From: Nymphaea colorata
Lineage: Eukaryota > Streptophyta > Magnoliopsida > Nymphaeales > Nymphaeaceae
DNA: 64,000 nucleotides
Assembly: GCF_008831285.2 (NCBI RefSeq)
Contig: NC_045145.1
Span: forward strand, 5,144,802 to 5,208,801
Direction of reading: 5' to 3'
Shown here: piece by piece, positions 23,049 to 61,921 of the stretch
How positions within the stretch are numbered: the stretch's first letter is position 1
Layout: each line of letters begins with the position of its first letter
Notes under the pieces: generated by a model
The model's input: only the letters and a program-made list of their open reading frames with translations
Told to the model about the DNA's origin: nothing
The model's database searches: none
Position numbers and translations under genes: made by a program

Positions 23049-24998
23049 TCACCTTCTACCGCGCTGGCTGTTCAACGACCGAGGAGAACCTTCAAAGAGG
23101 TCCAAGAGAAGAGTTTCTAGATCCTCAGCTGTATACTTCATGTATTTGTCTGCACTTCTTGTGCCGTCCAAATAACTTCCTAACCGGCCTGTGAATGTGC
23201 GGTAACCCTGAACAACCTTAAGCGAGATTGAGATCTGCAGGTCTTCCCGAAGTCCAGGGTCTGGGACGATCCAAGACGTCTGATTCTTATATATCTCTTC
23301 AAATGAGAAGTTAAAGCCCTTCAATCTCTCTTTGACTGCCTTTGAACCACCTGAACCAATGCCATCATCTTTCAACCAGGCGAGCACTGTGTTCCAGGAG
23401 GCTCTCTCGTAGTTCGTCGCATGCACTTGTACTTTCCGGTTGTGTCTTCTTATCCAGTCCTCACCAAGAAGACACAGGTCAGAACTTTTTACTTTCTGAA
23501 CCATGTAATGGATGTTATTCATTAGAAAGAAGTGTTGCAGTGCATCATCCCTGTACAATCTGGACCTCATATCAAGATTGGACTCCAACATGGAGACCAC
23601 TTCTAAGAGATTGTGCACAGTAGGCGAGAGATTTTTTGAGAAACTTCCGTTACTACCTTCAGGGGAAGCCGTGGTCGAAGAAGACACTGTAGGACTTTCA
23701 TGCCCACCTTCTTTGATCTCAAGAAGAAGATCGAGTGCGTCCTTAAAAGCAGTAAGCGTCTTTATGTAATTCATCACGTACTTTGTCAAGGGATGGATGC
23801 CCCCTCTAGCAAACGGAGTGCTTGAAACATTTCTTTCAATAGCATTCTCAAATTCCATAAAGGTACCTCTTACTGATTCACCCAATCTCAAAAGAACTTC
23901 GTGTGCCTCGACGCTAACAGAAGAACCATTTTCTTCAGAGAACAAAGTTTCTATATCTGTAAGCAGGTCCTGCAACACATCATGCATGCCAAGTATCCCA
24001 AACAGCTTTTCTGGAGACCGGCGGCCGATAGCAATAGCATCACCAAAGTTAAGGAGTTGGAGCATTGCACCTTTTGCAGTGTCAACAAAGCAAATGTTGC
24101 CAAGTGAGCTCAACTCTCCGAAGATCTGATTGCACAGGCGTTTTTCACTGGCAAGAAGGACCCTGACAAATATCTTTATCGCACGGATCCATTTCTTTAT
24201 ATAAGAATCAAGTATCTCCCACTCCATCTTCTCCACTTCCTCAATACTAAGCTTCTGAATTCCGAGGATGAAAAGGCCTTCATCCAGTGCATCTCTTCTG
24301 ATGCTGCTGTAAGCTTGACAGCATTCCAGATCATGATCTGACTGAATCATAAGGTCTGCAATGCATTTCAAGTTTTGAATCACACTTGGATTAATCAAAT
24401 CAACTGTGAATTCATCGAACTTGTTGGCAATTCCCTCAAGCTTAACCTGACTGTCATCAATTGAGTCATCATCAAAGCAGCCGGAGAAATCCTCTTCTGT
24501 AACATAACCTTCACTTGACCTGAAAGACGAAAGTTCCAGCTCCAAAGGCTGCCTACTCTGAACCAGCATATAACTAAATTCTTCCTCAAGCCTAACCATG
24601 GCAGTCTGAAGTACGCTATCAGCACGCTGAAGGATGTCAGTCCCTTCTTGATCGGATGTAATTGACAGGCTTTCTAAGCTTTCTATCAACTTCTGAATGT
24701 CGTCAACAGCCTGGAGATACTCACCAGCTTCCTCTGCTCCACATTCCCATAACATGGACTGACCAGCGGCTACAGAAGCAGCAGTACCCCAGCCCCACAC
24801 TTTTTCCTCAGCGAAAGCGAGTTTTTCTTCCATCTCACCAACTACCCCTTTCTTTTGCATGAATTGGTTGACAACTGAAAGATAACTACCAGAGTCTGGG
24901 GCAACTTTTGTCATGTTCATCTTCATCTCCAGATCGCTCACCATTTCAGGAGTCTGTAGTGATCGTTCTTCTTTGTCACCCTGGTCGAGCATCAACAA
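23049..24998 (-). CDS. EXO70: Exocyst complex subunit EXO70 family protein
   Basis: A single open frame of 649 codons, in the usual plant EXO70 range. EXO70 is a peripheral exocyst subunit that binds plasma-membrane phosphoinositides and helps tether secretory vesicles. The N-terminus has the family motif AAGQSMLWECGAEEAGEYLQ (near 80-98), where plant paralogues have a MIWE..EA.EYL block. The Exo70 domain spans about 265-635, with IRRDALDEGLFILGIQKLS, WIRAIKIFVRVLLASEKRLC, LHGMHDV-like helical segments, LTKYVMNYIKTL and the C-terminal YMKYTAEDLETLLLDLFEG. The intronless body is typical of the expanded plant EXO70 families. I cannot assign the clade with confidence, though an E- or D-like member is possible. 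The first ATG may lie in an intron: an acceptor-like GACCAG|GGTGAC follows it, in which case the ATG of MVSDLEMKM (residue 19) would be the start. Upstream leader sequence probably extends to about 27,050. Confidence 0.9.
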   Translation of the reverse strand: MLMLDQGDKEERSLQTPEMVSDLEMKMNMTKVAPDSGSYLSVVNQFMQKKGVVGEMEEKLAFAEEKVWGWGTAASVAAGQSMLWECGAEEAGEYLQAVDDIQKLIESLESLSITSDQEGTDILQRADSVLQTAMVRLEEEFSYMLVQSRQPLELELSSFRSSEGYVTEEDFSGCFDDDSIDDSQVKLEGIANKFDEFTVDLINPSVIQNLKCIADLMIQSDHDLECCQAYSSIRRDALDEGLFILGIQKLSIEEVEKMEWEILDSYIKKWIRAIKIFVRVLLASEKRLCNQIFGELSSLGNICFVDTAKGAMLQLLNFGDAIAIGRRSPEKLFGILGMHDVLQDLLTDIETLFSEENGSSVSVEAHEVLLRLGESVRGTFMEFENAIERNVSSTPFARGGIHPLTKYVMNYIKTLTAFKDALDLLLEIKEGGHESPTVSSSTTASPEGSNGSFSKNLSPTVHNLLEVVSMLESNLDMRSRLYRDDALQHFFLMNNIHYMVQKVKSSDLCLLGEDWIRRHNRKVQVHATNYERASWNTVLAWLKDDGIGSGGSKAVKERLKGFNFSFEEIYKNQTSWIVPDPGLREDLQISISLKVVQGYRTFTGRLGSYLDGTRSADKYMKYTAEDLETLLLDLFEGSPRSLNSQRGRR

Positions 24999-30345: not shown

Positions 30346-30732
30346 TATTTGAGTTAAAAGATGGAGTTTTCTTCTTGATTTTTTTTTTTTCAATGTGATA
30401 TGTTTGAAAACAAGACTTGGGATGAGACAATTTAGACAATGAATTTCATTAGACCTACCAAATCATTCAGGTGGATCATTTTGTGGGCTCCTTTTTCATG
30501 AGGATGTCTTTGAAACTCCTGAAAGAAAATTGGTTGTCTCGTAGAAATGATGAGCAAGGAAGGTGAATTCTAGGCCCCTCTTTCATTGAGAAGGGATGCG
30601 CTCTTGTCCATTTGATTTTACAAGAAACACTGTTATCGTTTCAACTAGAAAATAGTCAATTGCAAGATATTTATTTAGACAGCACGAAAGAATGAACAAA
30701 ACAATGCAAAAAAAAAAAAAACAAACTTTGTT

Positions 30733-33700
30733 TTTCAAAAGCGTTGTTTTATGCACCACCACCATACACATTGAAACGACGTTGTGTTGCAAAGCTTGAG
30801 TGAAAACCAGGTTTTCATGAAATTAGGTTTTTCAAGAACACTGTTTTATGTACAACCAAACACACTGAAATGACATTGTATTGCAAAACTCGAGTGAAAA
30901 CGAGGTTTTTCAAACACATTGTTGTATGCACAGCCAAACATTCTGAAACGATGTTTTACTACAAAACTTGAGTGAAAACCAAGTTTTCATGGAGCCAGGT
31001 TTTTCAAAAACATTGTTTTATGTATAGCCAAACACACGGAAACGACATTTGTTGCAAAACTTGAGTGAAAAGCAGGTTTTCATGAAACCAAATTTTTCAA
31101 AACACTGTTTTACACAAAGGCAAACAAACTGAAACGACATTTTGCTGCAAAACTTGAGTAAACCATGTTTTTATGAAACCAGGTTTTTCAAAAACACTAT
31201 TTTATGCACAGCCAAACACATTGAAACGAAGTTTTATTGCAAAACTTGAATGAAAACGAAGTTTTCATGAAATCGGGCTTTTCAAAAACATTGTTTATGC
31301 ATAGTGAAACACATTGAAACGATATTTTCTTGTAAAACTTGAGTGAAAACCAGGTTTTTATGAAATCTATTTTCTCAAAAACACTATTTTATGCACAGCC
31401 AAACACATTGAAACAATGTTTTATTGCAAAACTTGAGCCAAAACCAGGTTTTAAAGATTTCTTTATGCACAGCCAAACAAACTGAAACGACATATTGTCG
31501 CAAAACTTGAGTAAAAACCAGGTTTTCAGGAAACTAGGATGTTCAAAAACATTGTTTTATGTACAACCAAACACACTAAAATGATATTTTGTTGCAAAAC
31601 TTGAACGAAAACTAGGTTTTTCAAAAACATTGTTTTATGCAAAGCAAAACAAACTAAAACGATGTTTTCTAGAAAAACTTGAGTGAAAACCATTTTTTCA
31701 TGAAACCAGGATTTTCAAAAACACTGTTTTATACAGAGCCAAACACACTGAAACAGCATTTTGTTGCAAAACTTGAGTGAAAACCAGGTTTTTATGAAAC
31801 AAAGTTCCTCAATAACACTATTTTATGTACAATCAAACACACTGAAACAACTCTTTGTTGCAAAATTTGAGTAAAACCAAACTTTCATGAAACTAGGTTT
31901 TCATCAAACAAGGTTTTTCAAAAATACTGTTTTATGCACAACCAAACAAACTGAAACAATGTTTTGTTGCAAAACTTGATTGAAAACCATGTTTTTATGA
32001 AACCAAGTTTTTCAAAAACACTGCTATATGCACAACCAAACACACTAAAACAATGTTTTGTTGCAAAACTTGAGTAAAACCTAGGTTTTCAGGAAATCAG
32101 GTTTTCAGGAAACCAGGTTTTTCAACAACATGGTTTTATGCACAGCCAAACAAATTGAAACGACGTTTTGTTGCAAAAATTGAACAAAAACCAAGTTTTC
32201 ATAAAACCAGGTTTTTTAAAAACATTATGTTATGCACAACCAAACAAATTAAAAACGACGTTTTATTGAAAAACTTGAACGAAAATCATGTTTTCAGGAA
32301 AATCAGGTTTTTCAAAAATACAATTTTATGCACAACCAAACGCACTGAAATGATGTTTTGTTGTAAAACTTGAACGAAAACAAGGTTTCATAAAATCGGG
32401 TTTTTTAAAAATACAGTTTTATGCACAGCCAAACAAACTGAAACAACATTTTGTTGCAAAACTTGAGTGAAAACCAAATTTTCATGAAACCAGGTTTTTC
32501 AAAAACACTATTTAATGCACACCCAAACACAATGAAACAATGTTTTATTACAAAAGTTGAGTGAAAACAAGGTTTTCATGAAACTAGGTTTTTCAAAAAA
32601 CAATGTTTTGTTGCAAAAGTTGAGTGAAAAAGATGTTTTCATGAAATCGGGTTTTTCAAAAACAGTGTTTTATACATAGCCAAACAAACTAAAACGATGT
32701 TTTGTTGCAAAAGTTGAGTGAAAACCTGGTTTTCATGAGACGAGGTTTTTCAAAAAAACATTGTTTTATACATAGCCAAACAAACTGAAACGATGTTTTG
32801 TTGCAAAACTTGAGCGAAAACTAGGTTTCATGAAACCAGGTTTTTCAAATACACTATTTTATGCATGGCCAAACACACAGAAACGATGTTTTGTTGTAAA
32901 ACTTGAGTGAAAACCACATTTTTCAAAAACACTGATTTATGAATGGACAAACACACTGAAACGACGTTTTATTGCAAAAGTTGAATAAAAACCAAGTTTT
33001 CATTAAACCTGGTTTGTCAAAAACACTATTTTATGTCTAGCCAAATAAACTGAAATGACGTTTTGTTGCAAAACTTGAGTAAAAGCTAAGTTTCTCAAAA
33101 ACACTATTTTATGCACAGCCAAACATACTGAAACGACATTTTGTTGCAAAAGTTGAGTGAAAACAACGTTTTTCAAAAACACTATTTTATGCACAGCCAA
33201 ACATACTGAAACGACGTTTTGTTGCAAAAGTTGAGTGAAAACAACATTTTTCAAAAACACTATTTTATGCATAGCCAAACACACTGAAACAACGTTTTAT
33301 TGCAAAAGTTAAGTGAAAATCATGTTTTCATGAAACCAGACTTTCAAAAACACTATTTTATGTACATCCAAACACACTGAAACTACGTTTTGTTGCAGAA
33401 CTTGAGCGAAAACGAGGTTTTCATGAAAGCAGGCTTTTCAAAAACACTTTTTTATGCACAACCAAACACACTGAAAAACGATATTTTGCAGGAAAACTTG
33501 AGTGAAAGTGAGGTTTTCATAAAACCAGGTTCTTCAAAAACACTTTTTTATGCACAGCCAAACACATTGAAAATACTTTTTGTTGCAAAAGTTGAGCTAA
33601 AACCAGGTTTTCATGAAACCAGGCTTTTCAAAAACACTGTTGTATGCACAGCCAAACACACTGAAAAATGATATTTTGCAGGAAAACTTGAGTGAAAGCT

Positions 33701-34148
33701 AGGTTTTCATAAAACCAGGTTCTTCAAAAACATTGTTTTATGCACAGCCAAACACACTGAAAAGACGTTTTGTTGCAAAAGTTGAGCAAAAACCAGGTTT
33801 TCATGAAACCAGATTTTTAAAATACACTGCTTTGTGGAGAGCGAAACACTTTGAAATGATGTTTGTTGTAGAAGTTGAGTGAAAACCAGGTTTTCATGAA
33901 ACCAGGTTCTTAAAATACACTGCTTTATGCAGAGCCAAACACATTGAAATGACTTTTTTGTGTTATAAAAGTTGAGTGAAAACCAAGTTTTATTGAAACC
34001 ATTTTTTTCAAAAACATTGTTTTATGCACAGCGAAACACACTGAAACGGCGTTTTGTTGCAAAATTTGAGTTGCAAAAGTTGAGTGAAAACCAAGTTTCT
34101 CAAAAACACTTTTTTATGCTCTCCTAAACACAAAGAACTTCGTTTTGC
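30733..34148. repeat. Tandem array of a ~94-bp unit, about 36 copies
   Basis: Diverged head-to-tail units fill about 3.4 kb. A typical unit has CAAAACTTGAGTGAAAACC, then AGGTTTTCATGAAACCAGG, then TTTTTCAAAAACACTG, then TTTTATGCACAGCCAAACAC and ACTGAAACGACGTTTTGTTG. Most units are about 94 bp, and some near 33060-33300 are about 77 bp because the TTTTCATGAAACCAGG part is missing. Each long unit has the near-palindrome GAAAACCAGGTTTTC. Stops interrupt every frame in most copies, so it is not protein-coding. It is neither a CRISPR array nor a known telomere or rDNA repeat. Copies differ by many substitutions, so the array is not recent. Confidence 0.9.
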
Positions 34149-50241: not shown

Positions 50242-50478
50242 AGGGGTGGGCATCGGGTCGGCCCGGCCCGATCCGGCACGGGTCGACCCGTTTAAGAAAA
50301 AAAACATTTTTTAATCATAAAATAATGTTTTTAAGTATAAAATATATTTATTGATAATAAATATATATTATTAAAACAAATATATATATATATATTTTAA
50401 ACATAAACGGGTCGAACCAGGCCGGGCCGGCCTATCGGGCCCGGGCCCAGCGGCGGCCCGGCCTGACGCCCACCCTTA
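50242..50478. mobile_element. 237-bp MITE with 9-bp target duplication
   Basis: CCTAACTTC occurs at 50233-50241 and again at 50479-50487. Between them the ends are inverted: AGGGGTGGGCATCGGGTCGG on the left and TAAGGGTGGGCGTCAGGCCGG (reverse complement) on the right, with an AT-rich centre. A 9-bp duplication suggests a Mutator-type element; reading it as 8 bp would suggest hAT. Removing the element and one copy of the duplication restores the LINE reading frame across the site. Confidence 0.9.
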
Positions 50479-52896: not shown

Positions 52897-52904
52897 GTTG
52901 TGGG
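52897..52904. repeat. 8-bp target site duplication, left copy (hAT)
   Basis: GTTGTGGG directly before the hAT left terminus. The identical 8 bases follow the right terminus at 58657-58664. Confidence 0.95.
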
Positions 52905-54244
52905 CAGTGGCGGAGGGAGGGCGGGGCCTGCCTGGGCCATGGCCCCACCCCAGGCCGATGAAAAAAAAAATTAATTATAAAAATTTAAAAATTTTATTAC
53001 TTCTATGTAGTATTTGGATCTGGGTTCAATTTGGCCCTACCCAAATCCAACTCCAACCCCCATGGCCCGCCCCGCTTTTGTTTGCCCTATTTCAATTAGT
53101 TTTCAAAAAAAGGGAAAACCCACGCACCAGGGAGAGAAAACGAGAGACAAAGAGAGAGGGAGAGGGTTTGACAGAGAAAACGAGTGAGAACGAAAGGGAG
53201 CACCAAGCACTGGATCAGGTCTGCAGCCTGCAGGAGAGACCAAGAGATGACAGGCGCTTAGCACGAACACCCTGCTGGCTTCAAGAAGAGGTGGGGCCAT
53301 TTCCTCACTTTCTTCCATTCTTTATTATAATGGTCTTCATTTTTGTTGCTTAGTGAAATATGGTGGGGCCGTTTTCTTCATTCTTTAGTTTTTATGTTTC
53401 TTTTTTCTTAACCTTTTCTGTCATTTTCTTTTTCTCTATGGTGGATGAAATATTGGACCATCTGAATTTGCCTAAAAGATTTTGTAATTTGTATATTTTA
53501 GAAAATACATTCTACATTTAAGATTTGCATATCAATAGCACCAAACACCTGGAACTAACTGATCTAGTAAATCCCGGTTAAGGCCTGCAATTAGTTTTCA
53601 ATTTCGGTCATGCCATGTGAGATTAGTAGATCATTAAAGCCATAAGCTACAGAAGATACAGAGCTAGAGCTGCTGCTATGCTATTTTGTGTGTGAAGTTA
53701 CAGAGTTTGGACAGAGCCTAGATTATAGTGGTTCCAAAACTTGTGGTCTCCTGGTTCAGCTGAATGGTAACAATAGCCATGCCTCAGTTCACTTTTTTGG
53801 GGGTGGCTCCACCTTTTCCTTAGTTGCCATGACGAGCGTAATTGGCTCTTTCACTTATGTGTAACACATTTACTGATTGACTGACTCTATCTGAATCCAA
53901 ACAATTGTCCTTTTTAACCAAGCTTAAGAAACATGTTGTAAGAATTAGTTGAATAAATTATATTCTACTTAGAATAGGAAGGGTCGCCTTCTTAACTAAT
54001 GGCTAACCAGTACCAAGTGCATTGACCTGTTCAACAGGCCTGTAAGTATAATGGATCCACAGATTCTGTGTCACATTTTTAGAAGCAATTTTGCTCATAG
54101 GTGAACGACATATGCCACATAATACTTGATTCTTTGTCACCTGGTTTACTGGAAGCCACAATCTTTGGTATTTTTCATCAATGCCATGTCTATTAAAATG
54201 ACAAGATGACATCTTTTATAAATGCAGAACAATGTGAGAAGTAC

Positions 54245-54604
54245 CTGTGGTTTGAATCCATGAATATTGCAATATTCTCAGTATTGCAAAGTCATGTATC
54301 ATGACTGGTGCAGATAACATTATAGGTACAGGATCAAGCATGAAACCTTCTTTTGTAATAACTCGGTAAGTGAGGTAAGGTGGGGTTCTATAGTACCCAA
54401 GAGTGAACGTTCATCTGGTACCAAAGGCAAGGCTGTCAGATCTTACAATGTATATGAACAATCAATTTGATTACTTAGGTCGAGTTTAATTACCAGTAAA
54501 TGGGTTAATCTTTGGGTGAGCAGTAAAAGAATGTGCTAGCCTCTTGTCATAGTCCATGAGTCCAAGAGTTTGTAGGTCCCCATCTTCAGGGACCTTAAAA
54601 GCAT
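54245..54604 (-). pseudogene. CCD1: Carotenoid cleavage dioxygenase (CCD1-like) gene fragment, two exons
   Basis: On the - strand, after TATTTAATAG, exon 54604-54494 reads [18 protein letters not shown] and [13 protein letters not shown], ending in a GT donor. After a short intron-like gap a second exon (about 54416-54245) reads [18 protein letters not shown] and PVMIHDFAI, then in another frame TENIAIFMD, ending CACAG|GTAC. These are consecutive conserved blocks of CCD1-type 9,10 carotenoid cleavage dioxygenases, including the iron-ligand His segments (SFTAHPK and MIHDFAIT). Frame breaks at the start and end of exon two show that it is not functional. It lies inside the hAT element on the strand opposite to the transposase, so it looks like a captured host fragment. 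Confidence 0.85.
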
Positions 54605-55487
54605 CTATTAAATACAACAAGAAAGAATTCTGAATTACAAAAGATGGAGGGATAGAAATGCATTTTAGATGGAGGGATAGAAATGCATTTTTCATGTGCA
54701 GAGATTAGCTATCAAATATTAGCTGAAAGCCTGAAAGCAAAGTGAAATCAAAGGTGTATGTTTCCTAAGGAAAATTTGTCATTCTTAGGAGCTCAGAAGA
54801 CATAGTTTTTAGCTTTTGATCTAATACAAACACTTATGACTATTGTAATGAGTAGTCAAGCCTCTTGGGCAAACCCATGTCATTACAAGGACAAATGGGA
54901 CATATAAAAATTGGTTGACATCTTTGTTTGAAGTGAGCTGTTTCTGTGATCTACTCTTCCAAACTCAACTATCCAGCAAAAAAATCACAAATTTTGTGAG
55001 TTCACAATTTAACTCTCTCATGCTTGCTAAAGAGAAAGCTGAGGTACTTGATCCACACAGTTTCCACCTTCTGAGGTCTGTGACTCTGGGGAACATCTTA
55101 ATGTATCAAATGCTCCAGAGATTACTGCAACAAGATAATGTCTTCATAAACTCTGAAGAAACAAACTTCAACTCAATGGTCTGTTAGTGAAATTTATAAA
55201 GTAGCTTCATAAAGGCCTAAAATCATTCTCTGTTTCATTTTTCAGACTTCACTCCACTCGTGGTAATTCGAAAAGCAAGTTAGCGAGGAGAGAAAACAAC
55301 TCTTCGTTGTTCTACATAGTGCAAGAGGTTCAACAGGTAAATGTTGTCTTCTTTATCTGCTGATTATAAGGTGGTTGGTTCTAAATTCTTGCTTTTCATA
55401 AGTTAAAATTTTAGTACTTTCTTTGATGTGTATAAATGTTATTGTCTATTTTCAATTTCAGTTTTTTTGTGTTAGCTTATTGAGAAG

Positions 55488-57895
55488 ATGAAGAAAAATA
55501 TTCAAGATTATTTCAAAAAGAAACAAGTTATTGATCAATTGAGAGAAAACCAAGAGGGAGAAAACCAAGAGGGAGAAGACCAAAATGTTGGTTGTTCTAG
55601 TCCAAAAGCTCTTGATGTTGTTCTTTTTTACTCAGATTTTCCACCTTTTAAGTATTCAAAAATTGAAACTGTAGAAAGCATCGTGCGTGATCCAGGGTTG
55701 CGGCGTCCTATATGGGAGATACCAATAATTAAGAGAGATGAAGTTAGGCAAGCATATATCAATTATGGTTCATACTAACATAAGCTTCATAGATATCCAG
55801 TGTCAAGGTTCTTCAAGTCATCCTCGTAAATTTCAAGCTTCTTGGTTTCAAAGATTTTCATGGTTAAAATATTCTCAAAGACAGATAGTGCATATTGTTT
55901 ACCATGTTATCTTTTCAGTACTCCACATTCAAATGACAGTCCATTTATTACTGAAAGATTCAGAGCTTGGAAGAATGTGAGTGGTAGTATGAAAACATGT
56001 GTTTTCCGTAGTCATGAAGGGACAAGTCAAAATTCACCTCATAATATGAATGTGCAAGCATCTTAAGTCGTAAGCATACACATAGATAAAATGATTAAAA
56101 AGCAAAGTTCAGAGCTTGTTTACAACAATCGCTTGAGATTGAAGGCATCTATGGACGCAGTTCGTTGGTTGGCATTCCAAGCTTGTGCTTTTAGAGGCCA
56201 TGATGAAAGTTCAAGTTCATTAAATCAATATAACTTTATTGAGTTCATTAAAACTTTACCTAATTATAATGACAGAGTTGCACAAGTTGTTTTGGATAAT
56301 GCCCCAAAAAATGCTAAATATACATCACCAACAGTTTAGAAAGAAATTTTACATGTTTTTGCAAGTAAAGTGAGAGCTAGAATTATAGAAGAAATTGGTG
56401 ATGCTAAATATTGTATTATTATTTATGAAGCTCGAAATGAGTCCAAGAGAGAGTAAATGACTGTTGTTCTTAGATTTGTTAATAAGCAGGGTCAAGTTCA
56501 AGAGCGATTTTTAGATGGTGTGCATGTGATGGATACTACAGCAGTTACATTGAAGAACGCAGTTTTCACTTTGTTGTCTCAACATAATCTTAGTATTCAA
56601 GTTATACGGGGTCAAGGATATGATGGTGCTAGTAATGTGCAAGGTGAATGGAATGAATTGCAAGCATTAATTTTGAATGAATGTCCTTATGCATATTATG
56701 TTCATTGTTTTGCTCATAGATTACAACTTGCACTTGTTGTAGCTTCAAGAAAAGTTGTTGATGTTCATAGCTTTTTTGAACAGTTGACATGTAATTAATG
56801 TTGTTAGTGCAAGCAGTAAATGCAATGATGAATTGCGCAAAGCTCAAGCAAACAAAATTGCATTTAGAATTGCTATAGATGAACTTCTAACCGGAATAGG
56901 ACTTAATCAAATTGGATCACTCCAGCGGTCTGGTTATACTAGATGGGGATCCCATTTTTCGTCTGTGTGCAGTTTGATAAAAATGTTCTATGCAACATGT
57001 GCAGTATTGGAAATTTTAAGAGGCAATGGATCAACATATCAAATACGGGGTGAAGGTAATTCGGCTTACAAAATGATAATATCATTTGACTTTGTATTTA
57101 TTTTGCATTTGGTACAAGAAATTTTGGGACAGAGTGATATTCTTTGTCAATCATTGCAGAGGGAAAGACAAGACATTCTAAATGCAATGGTTTTGGTTTG
57201 TAATTCAAAAAAGTTTCTACAAGAACTTAGATAGACTGATTGGGATTCATTTATAGATACTGTGGGAGCATTTTGTATGACACATGATATCTCTATTCCA
57301 GATATAGATGCTCAATATTTTGTAAGAGAATCACGTTCTCGTCGTGAACGTAATTTCATTACAGTGAGACATCACTATCATGTTGTTATTTTTATTGCTG
57401 CCATTGATTCTCAACTGGTAGAGTTGAATAGTAGATTTAATGAGAATTTTATGGAAATACTTCGTTTGATGTCGACATTTAACTCTAGAGATCAATATGA
57501 GTCGTTTAATGCATACACTCTTGCACAGAAGTTTTATCCTGAAGATTTTTTAGACTCAGATTTTATGAGTTTAAATTATCAGTTGAGACATTACAAGAAT
57601 GATATTTGTCATCATCCAAGTTTTCAAAATTTGGGTACATTATCAGATGTATGTGAACTATTATGTATACATGTTGCTTAGTCTCATTCTAACACTTCAT
57701 GTCTCCACTGCAACCACAGGAAGGGCATTCTCTGCTATGAAACTTATTAAAACAAGGTTGCTTAACAAAATGGAGGATGAATTCTTTGCAGATTGTCTAC
57801 TTTTGTATATTGAGAAATAAATTACTCAAATGTTTGATTCGGATGATATTATTGATGTCTTTTATAAGATGAAAAACAGTAGAGCACAATTATAA
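55488..57895 (+). pseudogene. ZMYM/TTF-type hAT transposase, broken
   Basis: Successive frames match a plant TTF-type zinc-finger protein with hAT dimerisation region. The N-terminus reads MKKNIQDYFKKK and DPGLRRPIWE; the TTF finger region has DSAYCLPCYLFS; the DUF4371/RNase H-like core has GQGYDGASNVQGEW and YAYYVHCFAHRLQLA; the C-terminal hAT dimerisation block has VSTATTGRAFSAMKLIKTRL and ADCLLLYIE. It is broken by frame changes near 55775, 56040 and 56795 and by in-frame stops at about 56336, 56454 and 57232. An intron with acceptor near 55480 probably preceded it. As it stands it cannot make a transposase. Confidence 0.88.
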
Positions 57896-58191
57896 TAGGT
57901 AAAGTATTTTGTTGCATCCTTTTTATGTTAATGTTTATTTGAGTTATTATTTAGTTGCAATAACAAATGATATATTTTTTATTTATATTTTATTGTGTAG
58001 GTGAATGAATGATGATATGGAACTATTTTCAATAAAAATAAAGGCAAAAACTGATTGTATTGTATAGAAAGAATGCAAAATTTCTTGTTTTAGGTAAGTA
58101 ATATATATTTTGGTTTTCTAGTTTGTAGATGTTTTGTTTACTATATTTTTTGTTGTGATATGTGTATGTCCACTTTATGTTCACATTTATG

Positions 58192-58425
58192 TCATTGTAA
58201 TAGAAATAGAACACCTTATCTGTTTAGGACAGATCGTGTTTTGTGCTAATGACACAAACAATTATTAAAATGTGTCGTAGGACAAGTCGCGCTTCACATT
58301 TATCTATATCATTGTAATAGAAATAGAGCACCTTATCTGTTTAGGACAGATCGTCTTTTGTGCTAATGACACAAACAATTATTAAAATGTGTCGTAGGAC
58401 AAGTCGCGCTTCACATTTATGACGT
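58192..58425. repeat. 117-bp direct tandem duplication at the hAT 3' end
   Basis: Two near-identical units start at 58192 and 58309. Each includes GGACAGATCGT, then CTAATGACACAAACAATTA, then AAATGTGTCGTAGGACAAG; TGACACA and TGTGTCG are inverted to each other. The position just inside the right terminus fits a subterminal transposase-binding region. Confidence 0.8.
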
Positions 58426-58486
58426 GGGCAATTATATACGACATATGTTCACTACACTATGGTTTGCAAATATTTAAAGTGTGTGA

Positions 58487-58488
<2 letters not shown>

Positions 58489-58582
<94 letters not shown>

Positions 58583-58604
58583 GTATGTATATATATATAT
58601 TACA
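58489..58604. repeat. (TA)n and (GTAT)n microsatellite
   Basis: A pure TA run from 58489 to about 58570 passes into GTAT repeats and a second short TA run, close to the hAT right end. Confidence 0.95.
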
Positions 58605-58664
58605 GTTCGTTGGACCGTTCGGCCCACCCTGAGAAAAAATCCTGGCTCCGCCCCTGGTTGTGGG

Positions 58665-60087: not shown

Positions 60088-60760
60088 TTGTTCATGGGGG
60101 AAGCACAAGTGCATCGGCCCAATTTATAAGGGAATCGAAGAGGTTATAGAGAGAACTAGAAGGTGCCCGATGGAGGGAGACGGTGATTTCCCGAAGCTTC
60201 TTTCTTGCCTCTCGAGATTTTTAGAGCATTCCGTATTGCTTGGACGCAGCAAAAGAATCTTCTGGAGGGTTTGCTTGAATTGATTCCGCTATATTTACAT
60301 TTAATAAATTAAGATAAGATCCATAGTTTTCCAATTTGAGTTCAATCTGATCTGTTATATGTTTATAATTGATAAACCAAGCTAAGATCCAAATATGCAT
60401 TCCGTGTGTGCTCTCCTGTCATGGATCTCTTTTAGGGCCTCGTAGTGTTATATCTGATTTTCCAGGATCTATATGGTTGAGCACTCTTGGAATTCCATGA
60501 TTTCTGGGTTTTGTCGTAGTTAACCATGTTACGTGGATGTTCCATTAAAAAGTTATCTTTCAATGGTCACCTAAAAAGTCTCTCATTCATTTTACCATGT
60601 CTATCAAACACAGTTAAATTTACCAGGTTAAATTCTTCCTGTGCATCAAACATGACTTCAAATCGGAAGAGGGTTAAATTTTATCCTGTATTTTTACAGA
60701 AAAAATTTCTAGAAAAATTTACCACGTTAAATTCTTCCCTGTGCATCAAACGCCCCCTCA
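60088..60760. repeat. Segmental duplicate A: HSP17 promoter plus repeat end
   Basis: About 672 bases are nearly identical to 61251-61921 and in the same orientation. The copy begins at the HSP17 leader position, contains the TATA and heat-shock element region, and ends in the terminus GCATCAAACGCCCCCTCA. No HSP coding sequence follows its leader; instead the sequence to its left is unrelated. Confidence 0.92.
60188..60200 (-). promoter_or_regulatory. Heat-shock element, duplicate A
   Basis: TTCCCGAAGCTTC is a perfect three-unit heat-shock element (TTCnnGAAnnTTC). The same sequence occurs in the promoter of the truncated HSP17 gene. Here it has no coding region in front of it. Confidence 0.7.
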
Positions 60761-60884
60761 AGACCAACGCTCGACACCCTCCCCCCTCGCACCTCGCCTT
60801 CTCACTGTCGCACCAGAGGCCGCTCTCACCACTGCCGGTCCACCGTCGTTCCGCACTCACCATCGCCGGTCCGCCGTCGCATCA

Positions 60885-61130
60885 GAGCTTCAATCGCCTG
60901 TCCTCCTCGATCTGGACCCTGATGTCGCCGGATTTGAGCCCCGGCATGTCGAGGACGAAGACGTAGGAGGAAGGGTAATCCTTGACGTCGGCAGGCGTTG
61001 AGGCCATGGCCTTGGTGTCGCGCACGTAGCTGCGGGTGGGCGCATTCAGCAGCTTCTCCATCTCCTTCGGGACACTCATCAGTTGGTTGAGCGTCGACAA
61101 CAGCGGCTGCTCCACCATCACCACATCCAT
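60885..61130 (-). pseudogene. Truncated class II small heat-shock protein (HSP17-type)
   Basis: From the ATG at 61130 the frame reads [18 protein letters not shown], then [40 protein letters not shown] and DIRVQIEED, close to plant cytosolic class II HSP17 proteins. Similarity stops at about 60900 after the first strands of the alpha-crystallin domain, and five unrelated residues precede a stop. The missing part includes most of the alpha-crystallin domain and the C-terminal extension, so the product would not be a normal chaperone. Small HSPs bind unfolding proteins as oligomers. The promoter in front is well preserved, with a TATA box and heat-shock elements. The sequence replacing the 3' half contains two similar GC-rich stretches (CGCCGGTCCGCCGTCGC and TGCCGGTCCACCGTCG). 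It lies in the LINE-splitting insertion. Confidence 0.88.
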
Positions 61131-61285
61131 TTTCCTACACCTTTTGCTTTTCCCCTTCTTGGTGGTGCGGAATTGGTTTCTGCGTCTGCAAATGGAGATT
61201 CGAGAGCGCGATCGCGGTGTGTTTTTTGCTCTTGGGGTTTGATCGAACGATTGTTGATGGGGGAACCACAAGTGCATCGGCCCAA

Positions 61286-61291
61286 TTTATA
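61286..61291 (-). promoter_or_regulatory. TATA box of the truncated HSP17 gene
   Basis: TATAAA on the - strand within CCCTTATAAATTGGG, about 155 bases upstream of the ATG and about 60 bases downstream of the heat-shock element. Duplicate A has the same box. Confidence 0.65.
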
Positions 61292-61350
61292 AGGGAATCG
61301 AAGAGGTTATAGAGAGAACTAGAAGGTGCCCGATGGAGGGAGACGGTGAT

Positions 61351-61363
61351 TTCCCGAAGCTTC
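61351..61363 (-). promoter_or_regulatory. Heat-shock element of the truncated HSP17 gene
   Basis: TTCCCGAAGCTTC matches the three-unit consensus TTCnnGAAnnTTC exactly. A second two-unit site GAATCTTC lies at 61416-61423. Binding by heat-shock factors is expected from the family, not shown. Confidence 0.75.
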
Positions 61364-61921
61364 TTTCTTGCCTCTCGAGTTTTAGAGCATTCAGTATTGC
61401 TTAGACGCAGCAAAAGAATCTTCTGGAGGGTTTGCTTGAATTGATTCCGCTATCTTTACATTTAACAAATTAAGATAAGATCCATAGTTTTCCAATTTGA
61501 GTTCAATCTGATCTGTTATATGTTTATAATTGATAAACCAAGCTATGATCCAAATATGCATTCCGTGTGTGCTCTCCTGTCATGGATCTCTTTTAGGGCC
61601 TCGTAGTGTTATATCTGATTTTCCAGGATCTATATGGTTGAGCACTCTTGGAATTCCATGATTTCTGGGTTTTGTCGTAGTTAACCATGTTACGTGGATG
61701 TTCCATTAAAAAGTTATCTTTCAATGGTCACCTAAAAAGTCTCTCATTCATTTTACCATGTCCATCAAACACAGTTAAATTTACCAGGTTAAATTCTTCC
61801 TGTGTATCAAACATGACTTCAAATCGGAAGAGGGTTAAATTTTATCTTGTTTTTTTTCAGAAAAGTTTTCTAGAAAAATTTACCACATTAAATTCTTCCC
61901 TGTGCACCAAACGCCCCCTCA

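Follow-up and report, generated by a model that had tools for sequence, protein, structure and literature searches.

We found that a hAT element in the Nymphaea colorata genome, which bears a transposase of its own, very probably took host DNA into a putative intron of its transposase unit twice, first from a phytoene desaturase (PDS) gene and then from a carotenoid cleavage dioxygenase (CCD1) gene. The element lies on contig C8 in a 64-kb stretch of DNA (C8:5144802-5208801), which we refer to as the window and to whose first letter all positions without a contig name are counted. The evidence is drawn from one genome of one species, with an assembly of 407.8 Mb in 783 contigs.

The element occupies positions 52905 to 58656 on the plus strand (5752 bp) and shows the features of the hAT superfamily. 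The 8-bp target-site duplication GTTGTGGG is found at both of its ends (52897-52904 on the left and 58657-58664 on the right), its short, imperfect terminal inverted repeats (TIRs) are alike at 13 of 16 bp, and a transposase with a C-terminal dimerisation domain is recognised both in the window and in a relative, L028. The transposase region in the window (55488-57820, plus strand) is decayed, its frame being broken by stops and frameshifts. With scores of 64.7 and 67.8 bits, pieces of it exceed the DUF4371 cutoff of 32.1; Dimer_Tnp_hAT is matched at 21.3 bits, just below the cutoff of 21.4. The transposase domains of L028 score 39.6 and 222.2 bits, and L028 and a second relative, L029, each hold an 834-aa transposase frame without interruption. 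The 120 best protein matches of the relatives' transposase are TTF-type or ZMYM1-like proteins, the named ones coming from plants; a search of the hAT transposase against the PDB gave no match. L028 and L029 lie about 4.4 kb apart (C11:14.443-14.451 Mb), and their DNA is identical over 1343 bp, including the upstream part. Close to the 3' end of the window element are two 117-bp tandem units that are 97% alike (58188-58420), where the matches to family copies are shifted by about one unit.

Two consecutive CCD1 exons lie upstream of the transposase on the minus strand, namely, exon 9 (54245-54414) and exon 8 (54494-54604), with intron 8 retained between them (54415-54493). An AG acceptor and a GT donor are present on both exons, at all four borders. 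Exon 8 has the same length as in the host gene (111 bp), and exon 9 has been altered by indels (170 bp versus 185 bp). The exons match adjoining stretches of the Pfam RPE65 profile (134-163 and 165-208), each at 19.3 bits, where the cutoff for the whole protein is 27. The solved structures that match the exons best are carotenoid 9,10-dioxygenases (E-values 7.5e-16 and 9.8e-15), and NCED structures are much weaker (6.8e-5 and 0.012). All of the best 120 plant CCD1 proteins listed match the region 54245-54604, at 105-122 bits. However, the CCD1-derived DNA is not limited to these exons: it comprises 1379 bp (53772-55150, minus strand), made up of part of intron 9, exon 9, intron 8, exon 8 and part of intron 7, with intron DNA thus flanking the exons on both sides. 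When the majority base of three CCD1-bearing copies was compared with the host gene, using exon blocks displaced by a few bases from the final exon limits, 5-39% of the sites in each 60-column stretch of 53772-55150 mismatched, with one stretch at 49%; beyond 53772 and 55150 the mismatch leapt from about 0.2 to 0.5-0.64, as between unrelated DNA. All the captured DNA together, including an older layer described below, extends from about 53446 to 55195. A previous reading of this DNA from its letters alone (the sequence-only reading) had described two consecutive CCD1 exons with intron-like spacing and splice signals kept, antisense to the transposase, inside an element with clear ends and an 8-bp target duplication. 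Our analysis bears out each of these points, and the exonic core that it delimited (54245-54604) is exact to the base; as the extent of the capture, that interval is too short.

The genome search with the fragment returned five matches, all of which were scored: the window itself, two loci on C9 and two on C6. The C6 locus at 25.417-25.432 Mb is a CCD1 gene, whose spliced alignment to the Nelumbo CCD1 protein P0026 begins at residue 4 and yields a model of 15 pieces without frameshift or stop and with one GC donor. We call the model 14 exons, the last piece (21 bp, at the end of the aligned stretch) being doubtful; since the first piece (31 bp) is uncertain as well, the exon numbers taken from this model may shift by one. 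The fragment corresponds to pieces 8 (111 bp) and 9 (185 bp) of this gene with identical intron phases. The second C6 locus has only some exons well kept and requires a frameshift, so it looks like a pseudogene. Capture at the RNA level was ruled out by the retained intron. Donor introns are kept in the element as in transduplication, namely, CCD1 intron 8, parts of introns 7 and 9, and PDS intron DNA. The true exon-intron order is preserved in the fragment, as it would be if the window held an ordinary CCD1 locus split by separate insertions. However, this explanation has a negligible probability, as no further CCD1 exon was detected in the 64-kb window with 120 CCD1 proteins (best score elsewhere 28.9 bits), the copies on another contig have the same fragment ends, and the full-length CCD1 gene is located elsewhere.

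The CCD1 segment is nested inside the remnants of another host gene. On its left lies PDS intron DNA (53446-53773, minus strand), and on its right a short stretch of PDS DNA (55148-55195, minus strand). Immediately to the left of the CCD1 piece, a 323-bp stretch (53446-53768) matches eight places in the genome, the query itself included; two of these are at C9:1.85 Mb and C7:22.96 Mb, and two more are hAT copies on C7 (type II, L047 and L048). The locus at C7:6.39 Mb is a PDS gene. Four pieces of it match TIGR02731 (E-values 6.4e-30, 2.1e-26, 9.7e-15 and 1.7e-4), with bit scores far below the full-length cutoff as these are gene pieces, and it matches the PDB entry 5mog with E-values of 2.9e-33 and 5.5e-32. 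The kilobase that follows these pieces contains a further exon of the amine-oxidase family (Amino_oxidase, 49.9 bits), which we take to be the next PDS exon. We considered whether C7:6.39 Mb might be an element copy with PDS cargo, and rejected this, since the junctions relative to type I elements identify it as the PDS gene itself; apart from the shared parts, no element match was found in the gene and the following kilobase. In a comparison with the type I elements, which do not have the PDS layer, the sequence common to the elements ends at 53445 and begins again at 55191; the window DNA adjoining it at these points is PDS, mostly or wholly intron. Judged by these alignments, the source of the older layer is probably the PDS gene at C7:6.39 Mb, specifically its introns. 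Because the CCD1 piece is nested inside the PDS remnants, the PDS capture came first and the CCD1 capture later. Elsewhere in the genome, two PDS-like stretches (94-97% identity) abut without intervening DNA at C5:12181340-12181617 and have the appearance of a processed fragment of PDS.

Plant genomes often contain nested insertions, and the CCD1 piece could have been delivered by another transposon, such as a Helitron or a Pack-MULE, that inserted into the hAT element. However, the ends of the CCD1 segment, inspected by eye, are without inverted repeats and with a flanking duplication of at most 2-3 bp, which argues against its being the cargo of a nested transposon, and the segment replaces about 2.67 kb of the PDS piece and is not merely added to it. 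Furthermore, the segment was not found with other transposon ends at any of its five genome matches, which are three hAT copies and two CCD1 loci. We therefore consider such delivery very improbable, and favor two captures by the hAT element itself.

We first assumed that the C6 gene was the direct donor of the CCD1 segment. It is the best match in the genome outside the elements (89% over two exons and the intron), and the substitutions on the branch of the copies, about nine nonsynonymous versus four to seven synonymous changes in addition to a shared 1-bp deletion, fit neutral decay since a capture from it. These counts are based on the majority base of the three copies, were polarised with a CCD1 pseudogene, and include three ties, all synonymous, as well as one nonsynonymous change that is private to the window copy. 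From this pattern, the copied exons appear to decay neutrally, without constraint. However, we dropped the assumption after comparing the divergence of the introns with that of the PDS layer (MAFFT alignments, gaps ignored, again with slightly displaced exon blocks). The CCD1 introns in the window differ from those of the C6 gene at 93 of 439, 14 of 77 and 154 of 514 sites (18-30%), whereas the older PDS intron differs from the host PDS gene at 24 of 320 sites (7.5%; Fisher p = 1.4e-7, 0.008 and 6e-16, respectively). The PDS part of the C9 copies (19/189 and 17/188 sites) also differs less than the CCD1 introns, and that of the type II copies differs from the host gene at 21/320 and 23/320 sites. 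On the other hand, the CCD1 exons differ from the C6 gene at 19 of 263 sites, no more than the PDS intron does (p = 1.0), as if most of the differences had arisen in a donor gene that was still working. Since the CCD1 capture is younger by nesting and yet its introns look older than the PDS layer, the C6 gene is unlikely to be the direct donor; we retain a modest chance for it, because intron rates differ and the right-hand intron aligns poorly. Most likely, given these divergences, the donor would be another CCD1 gene that had diverged from the C6 gene while under selection and is now missing. Outside the elements, the genome search with the fragment found no match in the assembly closer than the C6 gene.

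With the whole element as the query, we found the CCD1 part in 3 of the 39 scored copies, namely, the window and two copies on C9 (C9a and C9b); 30 of the 39 could be read as loci, and again three of them have the CCD1 part. As the 39 were scored out of 1006 first-look candidates, these copy numbers are lower bounds; alignments shorter than 40 bp and pairs totalling less than 120 bp were left out of the family comparison. The three CCD1-bearing copies have identical capture ends and a common 1-bp deletion in exon 9. By eye, C9a is flanked by the target-site duplication TACACACA/TACATACA (7 of 8 bp alike), and C9b is without the first ~140 bp of the element. The flanks of C9a and C9b are homologous, including similar 3' flanking sequences, which rules out two independent insertions on C9 and indicates one duplicated segment. 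The same capture ends at two independent insertions, that is, in the window and on C9, thus imply a single capture, after which the element transposed at least once. The proposal of the sequence-only reading that a hAT element had captured a gene fragment at the DNA level is therefore upheld, by a host CCD1 gene that agrees with the fragment in exons, intron and phases and by the C9 copies with the same ends; it had suggested searching for a parent locus and for further copies. A host locus with the intron of the fragment thus exists on C6, and the window is not an ordinary CCD1 locus with insertions, holding no other CCD1 exon. That proposal has to be amended in three respects: the capture is nested in a PDS layer, the C6 gene is probably not the direct donor, and capture by hAT elements had already been published.

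Both captures sit within intron 1 of the transposase unit, if that intron is used. The putative intron extends from 53291 to 55245 on the plus strand (GT at 53291, AG at 55244-55245), and is followed by a putative second 5'UTR exon (55246-55336, plus strand) suggested by the family alignment. Of the 30 family loci, 14 contain the acceptor string and 6 the donor string; the 16 lacking the acceptor string are mostly type III copies, which are more distant, and many loci stop short of the donor. The donor GT is preserved in all six copies aligned there, one type II copy reading GTCGGG instead of GTGGGG.

Some other members of the family carry other host DNA in the same slot. The type II copies L047 and L048 match the window as far as 53773 and from 55148 onward, and between these points, which are the two limits of the CCD1 piece in the window, hold 1.4 kb of DNA from C3:24.73 Mb (89-94% identity), for which no gene identity was found. 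The type I cargo includes 648 bp matching C3:6.296 Mb at 89%, a source preceded, about 0.7 kb upstream, by an open frame in which one stretch is kinase-like (PDB kinases, E-value 2e-13; Pfam 22.3 bits, just below the cutoff). It also includes 296 bp matching C1 DNA at 89%, upstream of replication factor C exons (Rep_fac_C, 24.5 bits versus a cutoff of 23.6; no match in the PDB), where the source is probably an intron; since part of these 296 bp recurs on C12 and C13, a single source is less clear. The type III copies have different DNA again upstream of the transposase. The replication factor C region is represented more fully at a further locus, L046 (C12:9048900-9050600), than in the type I elements; this locus also has 89 bp of the element slot and is possibly another family member. 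We tentatively suggest, as a possible though doubtful extension, that intron 1 serves as an exchangeable slot into which host DNA is repeatedly copied and swapped while mobility is kept, and that the CCD1 cargo is a fossil of a gene that was lost or came from another water-lily lineage through hybridisation or transposon transfer. That both nested cargoes come from carotenoid genes might also be no coincidence, but a result of capture from co-active loci.

The joins suggest how the captures may have proceeded. The PDS gene would first have contributed about 3 kb, which entered in antisense orientation between element positions ~53445 and ~55191. In the line leading to the window and C9 copies, the PDS interior would afterwards have been exchanged for the 1379-bp CCD1 segment. 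A simple insertion does not fit, because the PDS sequence between the two ends is gone; rather, a break inside the element would most likely have been repaired by copying unrelated templates. Microhomology is observed at the outer joins (GGA at 53443-53445 and AATTT at 55191-55195) as well as at the inner joins (AA, and AAA at 55148-55150), with joins spanning 2-5 bp. These matches would fit such copying, although microhomologies as short as this also arise by chance. Cargo that is removed by splicing need not have harmed transposition, and the composite element would have moved at least once, after which the captured exons would have decayed as a pseudogene, most likely functionless.

As the fragment is antisense to the transposase and shares 41 exonic 21-mers with the C6 CCD1 gene (longest identical runs 42 and 38 nt), an antisense effect on CCD1 is chemically possible. 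However, that the fragment yields antisense or small RNA lowering the expression of the host gene seems highly unlikely, since it would lie within the putative intron, and since the copies have decayed, with the exon 9 acceptor lost in both C9 copies. Neutral decay of the cargo is the reading that we prefer.

The window contains several other features. An mTERF domain frame is located at 1342-1866 (52.9 bits versus a cutoff of 23.1), and an intronless EXO70 frame at 23052-24998, which is 97% identical to its counterpart in Nymphaea thermarum and 87% to that in Victoria cruziana. A satellite-like array of ~94-bp units that are about 75-80% alike extends over 30723-34147. At 50243-50477 lies a short element with TIR-like ends starting with CAGGGGTGGGCA, by eye a non-autonomous hAT. 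A direct repeat with 97.3% identity (60088-60760 and 61251-61921) surrounds about 490 bp, and the frame at 60882-61286 resembles by eye the start of a small heat-shock protein, with no Pfam match.

Gene capture by hAT elements is already known, and nested replacement inside an element bearing a transposase is an uncommon, well-resolved variant of it. In maize, the CCD1 copies of the White cap locus are associated with a hAT-like element; a search of the open-licence literature found no paper on the particular element described here. The maize hAT element Ds2-22, as described, has acquired by DNA-level copying two consecutive exons and an intron of ILR1-like3, a host gene on another chromosome (PMC3260210), and our element resembles it in having two consecutive host exons with an intron. 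However, Ds2 elements are described as Ac elements that were shortened by deletions and contain filler DNA (PMC3260210), whereas the window element has a full-length, though decayed, transposase region and, unlike Ds2-22, two nested captures. Copies of grapevine Hatvine-6 share the transposase and TIRs around a variable region that matches host exons, introns and non-genic DNA (PMC2528002), an organization that is also found here; however, the account given of Hatvine-6 describes no serial replacement in one slot, junction analysis or capture in a transposase intron (PMC2528002). In Pack-TYPE elements of the hAT kind (Pack-hAT), fragments of host genes lie between hAT TIRs with an 8-bp target-site duplication; these elements are defined as non-autonomous, and the pipeline that finds them labels elements matching a transposase as autonomous (PMC8903248). 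With CCD1 and PDS fragments between its TIRs, the window element works like a Pack-hAT, but it is not classed as one because of its transposase pieces at 55488-57820, and that pipeline would put elements of this sort aside. Of metazoan Pack-TIRs, 67.6% are reported to have microhomology at one or both breakpoints, with a median of 2 bp, and the models put forward for them are gap filling or template switching at stalled forks (FoSTeST; PMC8277862). Breakpoint microhomology, internal breakpoints and the likely mechanism are similar in our element; however, Pack-TIRs come from animal genomes and 56.9% of them are within 15 kb of their parents, whereas the CCD1 relative and the PDS gene of the window element are on other contigs (PMC8277862). 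Moreover, a fungal hAT with histone H3 is known (PMC6710886).

Nested captures provide an internal clock, since the outer cargo is the older one and divergence from the donors can be compared within one element; in the window element this clock points to a missing donor gene. Surveys that drop transposase-bearing elements at the outset would miss such cases, and hence counts of genes captured by hAT elements may be too low. With the window element, one can also test whether introns act as safe harbours in which autonomous elements are able to carry genes of the host.
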